The translations under genes were made by a program, and so were the position numbers. 64,000 nt of DNA from Deltaproteobacteria bacterium (GTDB taxonomy: Bacteria; Desulfobacterota; Binatia; Binatales; Binataceae). Location: the NCBI GenBank assembly GCA_021799495.1, contig JAJZAI010000013.1, positions 1 to 64,000 of the forward strand, written 5' to 3'. Shown piece by piece: positions 17,948 to 23,921 of this stretch (within the stretch, counting starts at the first letter, position 1; each line of letters opens with the position of its first letter). A model generated the notes under the pieces. The model saw only the letters and a program-made list of their open reading frames with translations. It ran no database searches and was not told where the DNA came from.

Positions 17948-18550
17948 TCAGCCCGGCCGCTTCATCCGGAAAATCGAATCGACGACCGCATATTCGTCGA
18001 GATAGCCGAGCCGCGCGATCGGACGTGCGCGGGAGAGATCGACGTTGCCGTCGACGATTACCGAATCGTCGATAAAGATGCTGACGACCTCGCCGATTAC
18101 GATCGAAAACGGATGCGGCTTGCCGCCCGGACCGGGCAGATCGACCGTCTTCACGTATTTGCACTCGAAGGCGACGGGCGCGCGCGCCACGCGCGGCGGC
18201 TTGACCGCGACCGACGGCGTCATCTCGAGCTTCGCCAGCTCCGGCTCGCTCACCTCTTCGCCAACGTCGGCGGAGGTGATGTTCATCTGCTCGCGCAAAT
18301 CCCAGACCGTCAGATTGTGCACGAACTCCCCGGTCGCCTCGGCGTTGCGCTGCGAATGCTTGCGGCCCGCGCTGGCGAACATCACGAACGGCGGATTCGC
18401 GGCGACCGCGTTGAAGAAACTGTACGGCGCGAGATTGACGACGCCCGCCGGACTGATCGTCGAAATCCATCCGATCGGACGCGGCACGACCAGCGCGGTC
18501 AGCGGATCGTGGCGCAGGTTATGGTTGCGAAGCCTGGGATCGTAGTGCAT
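17948..18550 (-). CDS. Flavin reductase family protein (FMN-binding split barrel)
   Basis: A 200-residue protein with the split-barrel FMN-binding fold: LTALVVPRPIGWISTISPAG, NLAPYSFFNAVAANPPFVMF and EFVHNLTVWDLREQMNITSA are signatures of the flavin reductase-like domain. It could supply reduced flavin to the LLM monooxygenase encoded convergently nearby, or use bound FMN itself. Its ATG lies inside the end of the upstream nuclease gene (32-base overlap, other frame), so translation is probably coupled. Confidence 0.88.
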   Translation of the reverse strand: MHYDPRLRNHNLRHDPLTALVVPRPIGWISTISPAGVVNLAPYSFFNAVAANPPFVMFASAGRKHSQRNAEATGEFVHNLTVWDLREQMNITSADVGEEVSEPELAKLEMTPSVAVKPPRVARAPVAFECKYVKTVDLPGPGGKPHPFSIVIGEVVSIFIDDSVIVDGNVDLSRARPIARLGYLDEYAVVDSIFRMKRPG

Positions 18551-20531
18551 TCGGTTGCTCCGGCGATTGATTCGGTTCGTCGGCCCGAGGCGCGGCGGCG
18601 TCGCGAATCGTGGCGGGTTCGAGCCGCGGACCGCTGAAATTTATAATCCGTCCGCCGGCGGCGTCGCGCTCGCGCAGCCATCGCGCGACGATCGTCATCG
18701 CCTCGAGTTCGCCGCGCGCCGGCGTTCGCGAACGATACAGATCGTAATTCGCCGCGACAAACGCCGCGAGCCGCTCGGGCGCGTCGCTCGCGTCAAGCTC
18801 GCGCGTCATCGCGAGCCGTCCCGCCAGCACGATATGGACGCGCGCGGCCGCATGCGTTTCGTCGGACGGAAAAACGATCGCGAGATTGTTTTCCGTCACC
18901 ACGCGGCTGAGCCGCGCCGCACGCTCCGAAAACGCCGCGAGCGCCTCGAGGTCGCGATGGCGCCGGTTGGCTTCCTCGAAGCGCAGCGCATGCGCCGCCT
19001 GATCGCGCGCCGCGGCCAGCGCGCTCATAATCGGCCCGCTCCGGCCGCGCAGGAACGCGACCGCGCGCCGCACGCGCTTGTGGTAATCGTCCGCGCTCAC
19101 GGTTTCGTTGCACGGCGCCACGCAATGGCCCGTCTGGCCGTACATGCAGGGCGGAAAATCGGGATTCGGATCGAGCCTGCCCGCGCAGGTGCGCAATCCG
19201 AGCAGGCGCGAAAGCGCGCGCGCGGAATTGTCCAGATTGCGCCGGCCGGCGAACGGCCCGAAATACATCACGCCGGCGCGCGCGCCGAGCTTGCGCGCCA
19301 CGGCGATGCGCGGAAAGCTGTCGGAGAGATCGAGCTTGACGAAATATGCCGGCGCCGCCGACTTCAGCATCCGGTTGTAAGGCGGCTTGAGTTCCCGGAT
19401 CAGGCGCGCCTCCAGCAGCGCGGCGTCCAGCGGCGAGCGCGCAAGCCGCGTTTCGATCGCGTGGACGTGCGCGATCAGTTCCGCGGTCCTGGCGTCGCGG
19501 CCGAGTCCGCCGTTGAAATACGCCGCCACCCGATCGCGCAGGCGCGCCGCCTTGCCAACGTAGAGCAGGTCTCCCCGATCGTTGCGCATCAGGTAAACGC
19601 CGGGCGCGCGCGGCAGCGCCGCGATCGTCTCCGGCGAAACGTGACGTTCCATGCGCCGTCCGGCGGCGCCGCGCCGCTCCCAATCGAGCAGCCGGTCGAG
19701 CCGCGCGATTCCCACCTTCGCCGCCATCTCCAGGAAGATCGCGAGCAGTTCCGCCGTCATCCGCGCGTCGCCCCATCCGCGATGCCGCCCGCCGGTGGCA
19801 AGCCCGAAATGCCCGGCAAGCGCGTCGAGCCGGCGGCTTTTGAGCGACGGCAGCAGGCGGCGCGAAAGCTTGAGCGTGCAGAGCACGGGGTTGCGGATGC
19901 CGGCGCCGAAAAGCCGGCGGAATTCGAGATCGAGGAAGGAATGATCGAATGGCGCGTTATGCGCGACCATCACGCCGTCGCCGAGAAAATCGCGGAACGC
20001 GGGCAGCGCCGCGCGGATCGGCGGCGCGTCCGCGACCATCCCGTCGTCGATCGACGTGAGCCGGGCGATAAACCGCGGGATGCGCATCGCGGGCCGCACC
20101 AGCGTCGCGAAACTGCGCGTGATCCGCCCGCCGATCAGTTCGCACGCGCCGATTTCGATGATCGAATCAGGCGCGGCGCGGCCGCCGGTGGTTTCGAGAT
20201 CCACCACGACAAAGCGCGCCGCGTCGAGCGGTATCCTGAGCGAAGCGCACGCACGCAGCATCCAGAGTCCGGTCGCGGGATCGAAGGCGCATTCCGGATG
20301 GCCGCCGAGCAAGCCGTGAATCAGGCGCGCGCCCAGCTCGGGATCGCGGCCCGCGCCCTTGAAGAGCAGTCCGACCAGCTCGCGCGCGCCGGCGCCGGCA
20401 GGATGGGCCGCGAGCCATGCGAGCAATTTCGCGCGCGCCCCGGGCCGCGGCGCGGGCGTTATCGCTCCCGCCGCGTAATCGGCAGAATTCACGCTATCCG
20501 CCGCCTCAAGACCGTCCGCTTCGATTTTCAT
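18519..20531 (-). CDS. DnaQ-type exonuclease fused to UvrC-like GIY-YIG endonuclease
   Basis: A 670-residue two-nuclease fusion. An N-terminal helical segment (about 30-90) is followed by a DEDDh 3'-5' exonuclease (about 105-270): FVVVDLETTGG, VAHNAPFDHSFLD and HRGWGDARMTAELL give D, E, D, H and D. Then comes a GIY-YIG domain (about 300-385): APGVYLMRNDRGDLLYVGKA, then a UvrC-like Cys-containing region (GLRTCAGRLD, CMYGQTGHCVAPC) and a UvrBC-like helix pair (ALAAARDQAAHALRFEEANR). The RNase H-like and HhH domains of full UvrC are absent. It probably nicks or trims damaged DNA like Cho or DnaQ-Cho fusions. The downstream flavin reductase overlaps its end. Confidence 0.88.
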   Translation of the reverse strand: MKIEADGLEAADSVNSADYAAGAITPAPRPGARAKLLAWLAAHPAGAGARELVGLLFKGAGRDPELGARLIHGLLGGHPECAFDPATGLWMLRACASLRIPLDAARFVVVDLETTGGRAAPDSIIEIGACELIGGRITRSFATLVRPAMRIPRFIARLTSIDDGMVADAPPIRAALPAFRDFLGDGVMVAHNAPFDHSFLDLEFRRLFGAGIRNPVLCTLKLSRRLLPSLKSRRLDALAGHFGLATGGRHRGWGDARMTAELLAIFLEMAAKVGIARLDRLLDWERRGAAGRRMERHVSPETIAALPRAPGVYLMRNDRGDLLYVGKAARLRDRVAAYFNGGLGRDARTAELIAHVHAIETRLARSPLDAALLEARLIRELKPPYNRMLKSAAPAYFVKLDLSDSFPRIAVARKLGARAGVMYFGPFAGRRNLDNSARALSRLLGLRTCAGRLDPNPDFPPCMYGQTGHCVAPCNETVSADDYHKRVRRAVAFLRGRSGPIMSALAAARDQAAHALRFEEANRRHRDLEALAAFSERAARLSRVVTENNLAIVFPSDETHAAARVHIVLAGRLAMTRELDASDAPERLAAFVAANYDLYRSRTPARGELEAMTIVARWLRERDAAGGRIINFSGPRLEPATIRDAAAPRADEPNQSPEQPNALRSQASQP

Positions 20532-20641: not shown

Positions 20642-21595
20642 CTATTGCGACGCGCGGATAATGCCGAGCGCGCCCTTGTACGAATGGGCGCCGGCGCTGT
20701 CGGAGAAGCGGTAATCGCCCGGCTCGTTCACGGTGAACTCGAACACCGCGCCCTGTCCGGGCGCGACCGTGAAGCTCGGAATATCGTGGAACGCGTCGGC
20801 CGGATTGCCGCTTTGATAGACCGTGCTGAAAATCACGCCGGAAATATGAAACGTCGAAACCAGGTTCGGGCCGGCGTTGACGAAAAAGACGCGCACGAGT
20901 TTGCCGGTTTTGATTTCGAGCGGATTCGACGCGCCGAACCGGCTCATCGCGCCGTTGAAAACGATGAAATTGGGGTTCGCCGCCAGCATCGCTTCGTGAT
21001 CGGCGGTGACGAATCCCTTGTCGTTAGGCCGGCCGTAAAATTCGCCCTGAATCAGCGTGAGTTCCTGCGCCGGCCCGTCCGGCCAGCCCTTGGCCGGCTC
21101 GACGATCATCATGCCGTACATCCCGCTGGCGACATGGTCGAGCATCGGAATCGCGCTGCAATGATAATCGAACACGCCGGGCACGGCGGCCTTGAAGGAG
21201 TAATCGACCGCGGCCGTCGGATCGCCGCTGAAATGGCTCGGCGCGATCTGCGCCGCCATGATCTCGATCCCGTGCGCCTCGCTGGTGCGGTTATCGAGAT
21301 GGATCGTCACGTCGTCGTCCTGCTTGACGCGCAGTATGGGACCGGGCACGGCGCCGTCGTAGGTCCACGCGTCGTACGTCATGCCGGCGCCGATCGAAAC
21401 GCGCTTGCGTGCGGCGGTCAGCGTAAAGCTGCGGTTATCGGCATGCGCGGCGCCAAACGGCCCCGCCAGCATCCCGGCGAACGCCAGCGCGGCGGCGGCG
21501 CGAAGCGCGAAGCGGCGCCGCGGCGATCGGGACCGCTCTTTCGCAATCGCAATCGAGCCGGCCGAAACCGAAAATTTCTGCGTATAAGACGCCAT
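20642..21595 (-). CDS. NirK-fold two-domain cupredoxin with type 1 copper only
   Basis: A 317-residue exported protein (signal region about residues 28-52) with two cupredoxin domains resembling copper nitrite reductase. Type 1 ligands are all present: H108, C146, H154 and M159 (DYHCSAIPMLDHVASGMYG). The type 2 site is damaged: the position of NirK His100 is Met113, His135 is kept as H145, and the position of His306 is Ser300. The catalytic Asp98 and His255 correspond to Glu111 and Ile255. I infer an electron-transfer role, not nitrite reduction. AAGGAGAAC precedes the ATG. It is the last gene of the porin-cytochrome operon. Confidence 0.82.
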   Translation of the reverse strand: MASYTQKFSVSAGSIAIAKERSRSPRRRFALRAAAALAFAGMLAGPFGAAHADNRSFTLTAARKRVSIGAGMTYDAWTYDGAVPGPILRVKQDDDVTIHLDNRTSEAHGIEIMAAQIAPSHFSGDPTAAVDYSFKAAVPGVFDYHCSAIPMLDHVASGMYGMMIVEPAKGWPDGPAQELTLIQGEFYGRPNDKGFVTADHEAMLAANPNFIVFNGAMSRFGASNPLEIKTGKLVRVFFVNAGPNLVSTFHISGVIFSTVYQSGNPADAFHDIPSFTVAPGQGAVFEFTVNEPGDYRFSDSAGAHSYKGALGIIRASQ

Positions 21596-21618
21596 CTTGG
21601 TGTTCTCCTTCAGGCCGG

Positions 21619-21978
21619 CTACTTTTTGCAAAACCCGCTGATATACGTCATCAGGGCGTGAATCTGATCGTCGTCCAATCCGGCGGACCATGCGGGCATG
21701 TCGTTGGGCAGGCCGACCGACGCGCCGCCGTCCTTGATCGCCTTGAACCTGGTGGCGTCCGGAATTTTCGACATGACCGCGCAATCCGTGAAATTGCGCG
21801 GCTTGGTCTTGAGCGTGCCCGCGTCGGGACCGTCGCCCTTGCCGTTTTCGCCGTGGCATCTCGAGCAGTAAATCTTGTAAGTCAGCGCCGCATCTTGCGC
21901 ATGCGCCGGCGCGGTCCCGATTACGCTCAGGCTCAGCGTCAGCGCGCCGGCCATACTCACAACCGCCAGTTTTCTCAC
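21619..21978 (-). CDS. Monoheme cytochrome c (CSRCH)
   Basis: A 119-residue class I c-type cytochrome with a Sec signal peptide ending AHAQ (about residue 28). Haem is bound at CSRCH (about residues 38-42) inside YKIYCSRCHGENGKGDGPDA. The likely distal ligand is Met94 in LPNDMPAWSAGLDDDQ. The length suits a soluble periplasmic carrier. It lies 23 bases before the cupredoxin gene and 120 bases after a second cytochrome gene, in one leftward operon. It probably passes electrons to or from the type 1 copper of the cupredoxin. Confidence 0.9.
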   Translation of the reverse strand: MRKLAVVSMAGALTLSLSVIGTAPAHAQDAALTYKIYCSRCHGENGKGDGPDAGTLKTKPRNFTDCAVMSKIPDATRFKAIKDGGASVGLPNDMPAWSAGLDDDQIHALMTYISGFCKK

Positions 21979-22098
21979 TACTCGACTCCTTAGCGCGATT
22001 TCGCCGGTTTAGTCGTGGCTCCGCGCGCGGCTCAAATGTTGCGGCTCCAATGTTATGGATACGCCGGAATCCGCCTTTGGTTGCGGCGGGGCGGCGCC

Positions 22099-22398
22099 TC
22101 ATCGCGACGCCTTCAAATATTCGAGTATCGCTTTCGCGTCCTGCGGCGGCAGATTCGCCTGCGTCCGCATGTGCATCAGGATCATGTTCCATTCGGTGGG
22201 AGAGAATTCCCCTCCCGGCCGCGCGTTGTGGCAGGTATTGCAGTAAATCGGCCAGAGCTCCGCGCCGCGCAGGAACATCTGGCGTTTTTGCTGCGCGGAC
22301 GTCGCATCGCTCCCGGCGCGCGCAACGCCTCCCGCGCACGCCGCGAGCGCCAGCGCGACCGCCGCGGCGGCGAATCCGGACTTGAACTTCCGCTTCAT
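22099..22398 (-). CDS. Small monoheme cytochrome c (CNTCH)
   Basis: A 99-residue exported haem protein. The haem site is LWPIYCNTCHNARPGGEFSP (CNTCH). MILMHMRTQANLPPQDAKAI supplies candidate Met axial ligands, and the C-terminal helix ILEYLKASR closes a reduced class I fold. The signal region is hydrophobic and contains LAACAGG, so it could be a lipoprotein anchored to a membrane. I chose the ATG at 22398 because GGAGG lies upstream and it starts only 17 bases after the porin gene. Confidence 0.85.
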   Translation of the reverse strand: MKRKFKSGFAAAAVALALAACAGGVARAGSDATSAQQKRQMFLRGAELWPIYCNTCHNARPGGEFSPTEWNMILMHMRTQANLPPQDAKAILEYLKASR

Positions 22399-22415
22399 CC
22401 CAGCCGCCTCCACCG

Positions 22416-23921
22416 TCAGAATCCCACCGCGAATTGCGAAACGAACGCGCGATCGTTCGGATACGCCCCGACCGCCTGTCCGGTGTCGCTGTAAAATCCG
22501 CCGGCCTCGGGCAATTCGAGATCGAATTCGTTCTGCCACACGATCGAAGGCGCGAGCCAGTAATCCAGTCCCAGCGCCACCTCGCGCGCATGCGGCGCAT
22601 ACAGCGCCGGCGATCCGGTGAATCCGATTTGAGGCGTGGTAATAATATTGGCGAGAACGGTCGCCCGCTGATTGATTCCGGAATAGCGAACCAGCGGCTC
22701 CAGCTTGTCGATATACTCATTCGCCGCGGACGGAATGAACGGCAAGGTCAGGCCGGTCAGGAAATAACCCGCCTGCACGTACCAGCCCTGGCGGTTGTCG
22801 GCGCCAAGTCCGGCCGGCATCTGCCGGTAGCTCTGTATCCATTCGCCGCGCGCCTGCAGATTGTCGCGGAAATAGTTGAAATCGGCTCCCCACGAAGTCA
22901 TCCAAAGTCCGTTCGCCCACTTGCCGTCGTAGGTCGAAACGCCCAGCTCAAGCCGGCCCCAATCGGAATCCGCGGGCAACGGATAGATCCGGAAACGGCC
23001 GCCGAACGACGGCGTATGAGTATTCAACCTGATATTATTCACTCCGACCAGCGTATCGCCGACGAACGCCGTCGACGTGCAGGTTGGCAGCGGGCTGGGC
23101 GGCGTATTGTTGGTGCAGGTTGAATTGGTGTAGCCCGGACCGTTGCCCGACCATACCGTGTAGTCGGCCACCTGGCCCATCCGGCCCCACTGGAATCCGC
23201 CGCGCACCTGCACGCCGATTTCGGTGGGCGGGATCAGCGGATTGACGTTATACGGCAGCGGCGCGGTGACGAACCGGTTCACCCACACAGCGCTTTGGTC
23301 TTCGTACCAGTCGCCGAACGGCTGATCGAAAATTCCCATTACCAATTCGACGTAGTTATTCAAGAAATACTGAAAATCCGCCACGGGCAACTGATAGCTC
23401 GCCGACGAACCGGCCGGCAGTCCTGCCGCGATCGAACCCTCAAAGAGCAAATCATCACTGAGCTGCCATAAAATTATTGGCTCGAGTTCAAGATTGAAAG
23501 TGTTGATATTGCTGTTGCGATCATAGATAAAACCGCCGGCCGCATCGCCCACTATTGTGACGCGATAACGCCCAAGAAAGCGATCCATCGCGTCCATGAA
23601 ATCTTCCGGCGACGGCGACGTGGCGACTTTGGATTGCAGCGCGCTGATTTGCTCGTTCGTCGAGCTTTGCAGCTTCTGTGTGTTTTTCTGCAGTTCCGCG
23701 TTGGCCTTTTTCAACCGGCCATTTTCGTTTTCGAGCTGATCGACGCGCTGTTCGAGCAGTTTCAACTCGCGGCGGATTTCCCTGATTTGCCGCTCCTGCG
23801 CCACTCCCGGATCGCTCGCGCCGCTCGACACAGACATGTCGTCCGCCATCGTGATTGACGGCAAAACCGCGATCCCGATCGCGGCCGCGGCCAGAACCAT
23901 CCACCTTGCCAACCCTCGCAT
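22416..23921 (-). CDS. Outer-membrane porin with N-terminal coiled coil
   Basis: A 501-residue exported protein. A signal peptide (about 1-26, ending TMADD) is followed by a coiled coil (about 42-95; RELKLLEQRVDQLENENGRL) and a long beta-barrel part rich in alternating aromatic and polar residues, ending in Phe (FAVGF), as expected for recognition by the Bam complex. SFGGRFRIYPLPADSDWGRL and GADFNYFRDNLQARGEWIQS are barrel strand pairs. GAGGAATTCC precedes the ATG at 23921. It is first in the operon with two cytochromes and a cupredoxin, so it may admit a substrate or hold a trans-membrane electron conduit. Confidence 0.85.
   Translation of the reverse strand: MRGLARWMVLAAAAIGIAVLPSITMADDMSVSSGASDPGVAQERQIREIRRELKLLEQRVDQLENENGRLKKANAELQKNTQKLQSSTNEQISALQSKVATSPSPEDFMDAMDRFLGRYRVTIVGDAAGGFIYDRNSNINTFNLELEPIILWQLSDDLLFEGSIAAGLPAGSSASYQLPVADFQYFLNNYVELVMGIFDQPFGDWYEDQSAVWVNRFVTAPLPYNVNPLIPPTEIGVQVRGGFQWGRMGQVADYTVWSGNGPGYTNSTCTNNTPPSPLPTCTSTAFVGDTLVGVNNIRLNTHTPSFGGRFRIYPLPADSDWGRLELGVSTYDGKWANGLWMTSWGADFNYFRDNLQARGEWIQSYRQMPAGLGADNRQGWYVQAGYFLTGLTLPFIPSAANEYIDKLEPLVRYSGINQRATVLANIITTPQIGFTGSPALYAPHAREVALGLDYWLAPSIVWQNEFDLELPEAGGFYSDTGQAVGAYPNDRAFVSQFAVGF

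Follow-up and report, generated by a model that had tools for sequence, protein, structure and literature searches.

Copper nitrite reductases (NirK) hold their type 2 copper with three histidines, numbered 100, 135 and 306 (PMC5571812), and Asp98 and His255 are both demanded of a protein assigned to the family (PMC4770552). In the ncgABC-nirK operon, as found in Nitrosomonas europaea and Nitrobacter, small c-type cytochromes directly precede a NirK-type cupredoxin, accompanied by the multicopper oxidase NcgA. The rus and petI operons of Acidithiobacillus ferrooxidans encode Cyc2, Cyc1, an aa3 oxidase and rusticyanin, as well as a bc1 complex (PMC2621215), and Cyc2 carries a motif, AXPXFAR[Q/K][T/Y], upstream of its CXXCH, with PXL downstream (PMC8406198). 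Two-domain NirK-like cupredoxins devoid of type 2 copper occur beside coxAB in Ca. Angelarchaeales, where they are described as ancestral, with two type 1 centres (PMC9038741). A literature search, limited in coverage, returned no description of a derived NirK lacking the type 2 site, nor of a porin–cytochrome–nirK operon. Here we describe such an operon from the window, i.e. the whole stretch of 64,000 nucleotides that was analysed. We consider it likely that its cupredoxin is a derived NirK that, having lost the type 2 site, serves as a blue-copper electron carrier and forms the exchangeable periplasmic end of a respiratory module made of a porin and two cytochromes. The copper loading of the protein, the direction of the electrons, the redox partners and any part of the porin in electron passage are points that we infer.

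The operon and its products

On the minus strand of the window, the genes for the porin, cytochrome A, cytochrome B and the cupredoxin follow each other head to tail in that order, with gaps of 17, 120 and 23 nt, and all four products are exported proteins. The initial annotation had called these genes a leftward operon and proposed a search for their synteny; they indeed lie as described, and the four-gene order was found in 13 loci, that is, in 12 loci of related genomes besides the window, reaching down to about 30% porin identity. The flanking genes are unrelated, being SufT-like, rplU and rpmA on one side and an exonuclease/GIY-YIG gene on the other, the latter (18519-20531, minus strand) encoding a protein in which exonuclease (RNase_T) and GIY-YIG (UvrC-like) parts are fused. 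Scans for promoters and terminators found nothing above chance. The host genome is a 3.43-Mb assembly of 89 contigs, and the relatives compared are metagenome bins.

The porin (22416-23921, minus strand; 501 aa) has a signal peptide, two Cys residues and no CXXCH heme motif in its sequence. Its structural model, which is of low confidence (mean pLDDT 64), displayed an N-terminal coiled-coil helix at about residues 41-99 and 16 strands as assigned by DSSP, with OprP (2o4v) as the best fold match and OprO (4rjw) as the third. This predicted stalk helix and barrel agree with the coiled-coil beta-barrel porin that had been proposed from the letters alone. On this low-confidence model the porin shares with Cyc2, an iron oxidase, the 16-stranded OprP/OprO-like barrel, a common porin type; in Cyc2 a monoheme domain is fused to the N-terminus of the barrel, whereas cytochrome A is here encoded by a separate gene. 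The upstream Cyc2 motif was moreover absent from cytochrome A in the alignment of relatives. Membership of Cyc2 was rejected because of the heme-free porin and the missing motif, and an MtrAB-type multiheme conduit was rejected on account of the 16 strands and the single heme per cytochrome.

Both cytochromes are monoheme c-type proteins having the CNTCH and CSRCH motifs originally noticed. Cytochrome A (22099-22398, minus strand; 99 aa, CNTCH) has an H76-M77 pair that is invariant among its relatives, and a lipobox-like LAAC that is found in the window and in locus L004, without being kept in all sequences of the relatives' alignment. Cytochrome B (21619-21978, minus strand; 119 aa, CSRCH, GTG start) has an invariant M94, and is 34-39% identical to the cytochrome beside nirK in two ncgABC-nirK-type clusters of relatives. 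These clusters, found in the family to which the window belongs (L085:4487-7732 and L086:5166-8368), encode a two-domain multicopper oxidase close to 3g5w (523 bits), cytochromes c and a NirK close to that of N. europaea, 4kns (504 bits). The operon of the window likewise places small c-type cytochromes directly before a NirK-type cupredoxin, but it has a porin in place of NcgA, its cupredoxin is degenerate and its genome has no NO reductase.

Copper sites of the cupredoxin

The cupredoxin (20642-21595, minus strand; 317 aa) is a two-domain exported protein with C146 as its only Cys. Its best annotation is copper nitrite reductase (TIGR02376), although its 161.7 bits fall below the curated cut-off of 296.3, and its closest families and folds are NirKs, so that the similarity initially predicted holds. 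The nearest solved structures, 6the, 1kbv/5tb7 and 2dv6, belong to the AniA class and match along the whole length, with a TM of about 0.75-0.78 and 31-35% identity.

Residue equivalences were taken from an alignment to AniA and are given in the numbering of the A. cycloclastes NirK. The alignment confirmed that the type 1 ligands are complete (H108, C146, H154 and M159), as had been claimed. It also bore out three of the four proposed replacements, namely M113 for the type 2 ligand His100, S300 for the type 2 ligand His306 and E111 for Asp98. The fourth, Ile255 for His255, was a misalignment, since the P254-H255-L256-I257 of the A. cycloclastes enzyme opens PHLIGGH and its H255 aligns with H250 of the window protein (H240 in AniA), the catalytic histidine thus being kept; I255, five residues further on, aligns with I245 of AniA, a position at which intact NirKs have Ile as well. 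Type 2 loss had been correctly recognized, while two features of the site had been overlooked: the third type 2 ligand, His135, is retained as H145, and the capping Ile257 is replaced by S252.

The protein accordingly resembles NirKs of the AniA class in its full-length two-domain fold, its type 1 site and its equivalents of His135 and His255, and differs from them in having M113, H145 and S300 at the positions of the three type 2 histidines and E111 together with H250 at those of the Asp98 and His255 pair. With two type 2 ligands, Asp98 and Ile257 gone, the conclusion that the catalytic site has been lost stands, as judged from the aligned residues. Single-domain blue copper carriers such as plastocyanin and rusticyanin differ from this protein in domain number, but it would work as they do. 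It is similar to the proteins of Ca. Angelarchaeales in being a type 2-less two-domain blue copper protein, which in that group are found near respiratory complexes (PMC9038741); it is different in that its one Cys allows one type 1 centre and in that the loss would be a derived one inside NirK. Genes of this kind would be annotated as nirK and counted as a denitrification marker, while in the lineage of the window they encode a protein without the NirK active site.

A porin–cytochrome core with exchangeable partners

Cytochrome A was found in 33 of the 41 genomes of the order, and all 37 loci that were read have the same porin beside it. Since members of these loci served to build the models used for assigning roles, seed members score high by construction; gene order is independent of the models. 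As partner of the porin and cytochrome A we found a NirK-like protein in 13 loci, a Rieske/cytochrome b operon in 11, a plastocyanin-like protein in five, an aa3 oxidase in two and none that could be recognized in eight, with L074 and L112 counted twice and some of these eight loci truncated by contig ends. In L112 the order is coxB-coxA-coxC, plastocyanin-like protein, porin and cytochrome A, and in L120 it is porin, cytochromes, COX2, COX1 and COX3. L074 has a NirK module with the type 2 site lost, directly followed by a second porin–cytochrome module having a Rieske/cytochrome b set. In the 11 loci with such a set, for example L110:9065-13702, a glutamate-synthase-like FAD/Fe-S oxidoreductase, a Rieske protein, an ExtP-like cytochrome b and a cytochrome c are encoded directly behind the core; this set resembles an operon for a bc-type complex that has no name.

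In other loci, electron carriers or respiratory complexes take the slot of the window's cupredoxin, and no other observation speaks more strongly for its role in electron transfer. By gene order, the porin and cytochrome A make up a core whose partner is swapped, an arrangement that is new here and that supports a role in electron transfer. The operon had initially been viewed as an outer-membrane/periplasmic electron-transfer module; the recurring core and its swapped redox partners uphold that view, but not so far as to include a crossing of the outer membrane by electrons. The core constitutes an unnamed respiratory module across an order represented here by metagenome bins only, and one that may offer an outer-membrane electron route.

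In composition there is a parallel with the rus/petI operons, in which a 16-stranded OprP/OprO-type outer-membrane barrel is likewise combined with a blue copper protein and small c cytochromes; in relatives of the window, aa3 oxidase genes (L112, L120) or those of a Rieske/cytochrome b complex join this set. The differences are that cytochrome and porin are here separate proteins and that the blue copper part is either NirK-derived or plastocyanin-like, not a rusticyanin. It is also conceivable, if rather unlikely, that the porin and cytochrome A are a two-protein counterpart of Cyc2 for electron uptake (or release), with the cytochrome docked at the barrel and with interchangeable downstream carriers or complexes. 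A nitrite reductase reduced to a blue copper protein would then be one such interchangeable recipient.

With the cupredoxin taken as the periplasmic end of the module, electrons would be relayed in the periplasm via the two cytochromes and the type 1 copper, the most likely path running between these cytochromes, the cupredoxin and the aerobic chain. The genome of the window has one heme-copper oxidase, which adjoins genes for alternative complex III; at L098 (contig 31 of G000), ActD, NrfD and an Fe-S/Mo-like subunit are encoded beside a caa3-type oxidase with fused COX1-COX3. The likely partner chain would be alternative complex III together with the caa3-type oxidase.

Loss of the type 2 site within the clade

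A maximum-likelihood tree, computed without the trait columns, comprised 38 NirK-like proteins, all of which have the same type 1 ligands. Within the clade of 20 proteins that includes the window, the type 2 triad is degenerate in 14 members, the window among them, and in several different ways. At positions 113, 145 and 300 the triad reads MHS or MHT in the genus of the window, and QHS, YHQ, YHG, YHD, GHS, HHL or HQH outside it, giving Met, Gln, Tyr or Gly at 113, Ser, Thr, Gly, Asp, Gln or Leu at 300, or Gln at 145. The remaining six members retain HHH, three of them with Tyr in place of Asp98. An intact group, L077-L080, was nested among the degenerate proteins in the tree, which implies no fewer than three separate losses provided that a lost site is never regained; unordered parsimony needed only two changes, and some of the branches behind the loss count have 83-90% support.

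Among 12 relatives that have lost the type 2 site, positions 111, 113, 252 and 300 were at the 84th-93rd percentile of variability, and positions 108, 146, 154 and 159 were invariant. The dN/dS ratio of the cupredoxin, determined over four species, was 0.18-0.20, and its operon neighbours were similar, with about 0.2 for all four genes. Variable former type 2 columns, invariant type 1 ligands and low dN/dS fit what would be a maintained, non-catalytic blue-copper protein. The early proposal that the protein carries electrons only is hence supported by inference, through the type 2 loss in 14 proteins, the invariant type 1 site and the purifying selection. One helical turn past the lost His306 lies H304 (20684-20686 of the window), a position that holds His in 11 of the 12 type-2-lost proteins but Arg in six of the clade's remaining eight members; this His might act as a substitute ligand or might reflect a change at the surface.

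Ancestry and alternative explanations

Four loci (L077, L078, L079 and L095) have the same operon with all three type 2 histidines in the cupredoxin, showing that the operon is compatible with catalysis and that the module is not non-catalytic by definition. L078 adjoins a quinol-type NO reductase, and the nearest outgroup or sister NirKs, L011 and L082, adjoin norCB; together these neighbours suggest that the cupredoxin probably descends from a nitrite reductase associated with NO reduction. That enzyme was probably recruited and degenerated afterwards. Genome G427 has both an intact copy adjoining norCB and a degenerate copy adjoining cytochrome B. No NO reductase was found in the genome of the window, and in a small sample an NO reductase was present in four of the 15 genomes that carry a degenerate copy versus four of the six that carry an intact sister copy, so that type 2 loss shows no more than a tendency to go with a missing NO reductase. 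Since this operon holds an intact cupredoxin in some members of the clade and a degenerate one in others, the transition from enzyme to carrier is open to direct study.

Alternatively, the cupredoxin could still be an enzyme handling nitrite or NO, with an unusual type 2 site formed by M113, H145, H250 and/or H304. The invariance of H145, the retention of H250 in the window and the enrichment of H304 in type-2-lost proteins would agree with this, as would the intact triads in the same operon, the quinol-type NO reductase at L078 and the norCB genes next to L011 and L082. However, the degenerate proteins share no candidate ligand set, with Met, Gln, Tyr, Gly or His at 113, His, Ala, Asp or Met at 250 and the six residues listed above at 300, Asp98 and Ile257 are gone as well, and NO reductase is missing from the genome of the window and, in that small sample, less frequent beside degenerate copies. 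We therefore regard continued catalysis as improbable.

Still less credible is a function of the cupredoxin in copper storage, chaperoning or sensing, with a porin that lets in solutes or metal. A non-catalytic NirK could retain type 1 copper for storage, but the partners in relatives are redox chains and not copper efflux or resistance genes, the cupredoxin sequence has no Met/His-rich copper-binding region and storage would leave the two cytochromes c of the operon with no role. That the operon is a decaying remnant after a switch from nitrite respiration can be given hardly any credence, since its frames are open in four species with low dN/dS in every gene and no type 1 ligand varies over a clade whose members share as little as 51-59% identity with the window cupredoxin, even though the cupredoxin is missing in two of seven genomes of the genus (G403 and G406, the latter retaining porin and cytochrome A), for which assembly gaps may be part of the explanation.

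Another type 2 loss, His135 to Gln adjoining the type 1 Cys, was seen at L076:7071-7967 and L081:6663-7577, where the surrounding genes are universal-stress-like and luciferase-like, without a porin.
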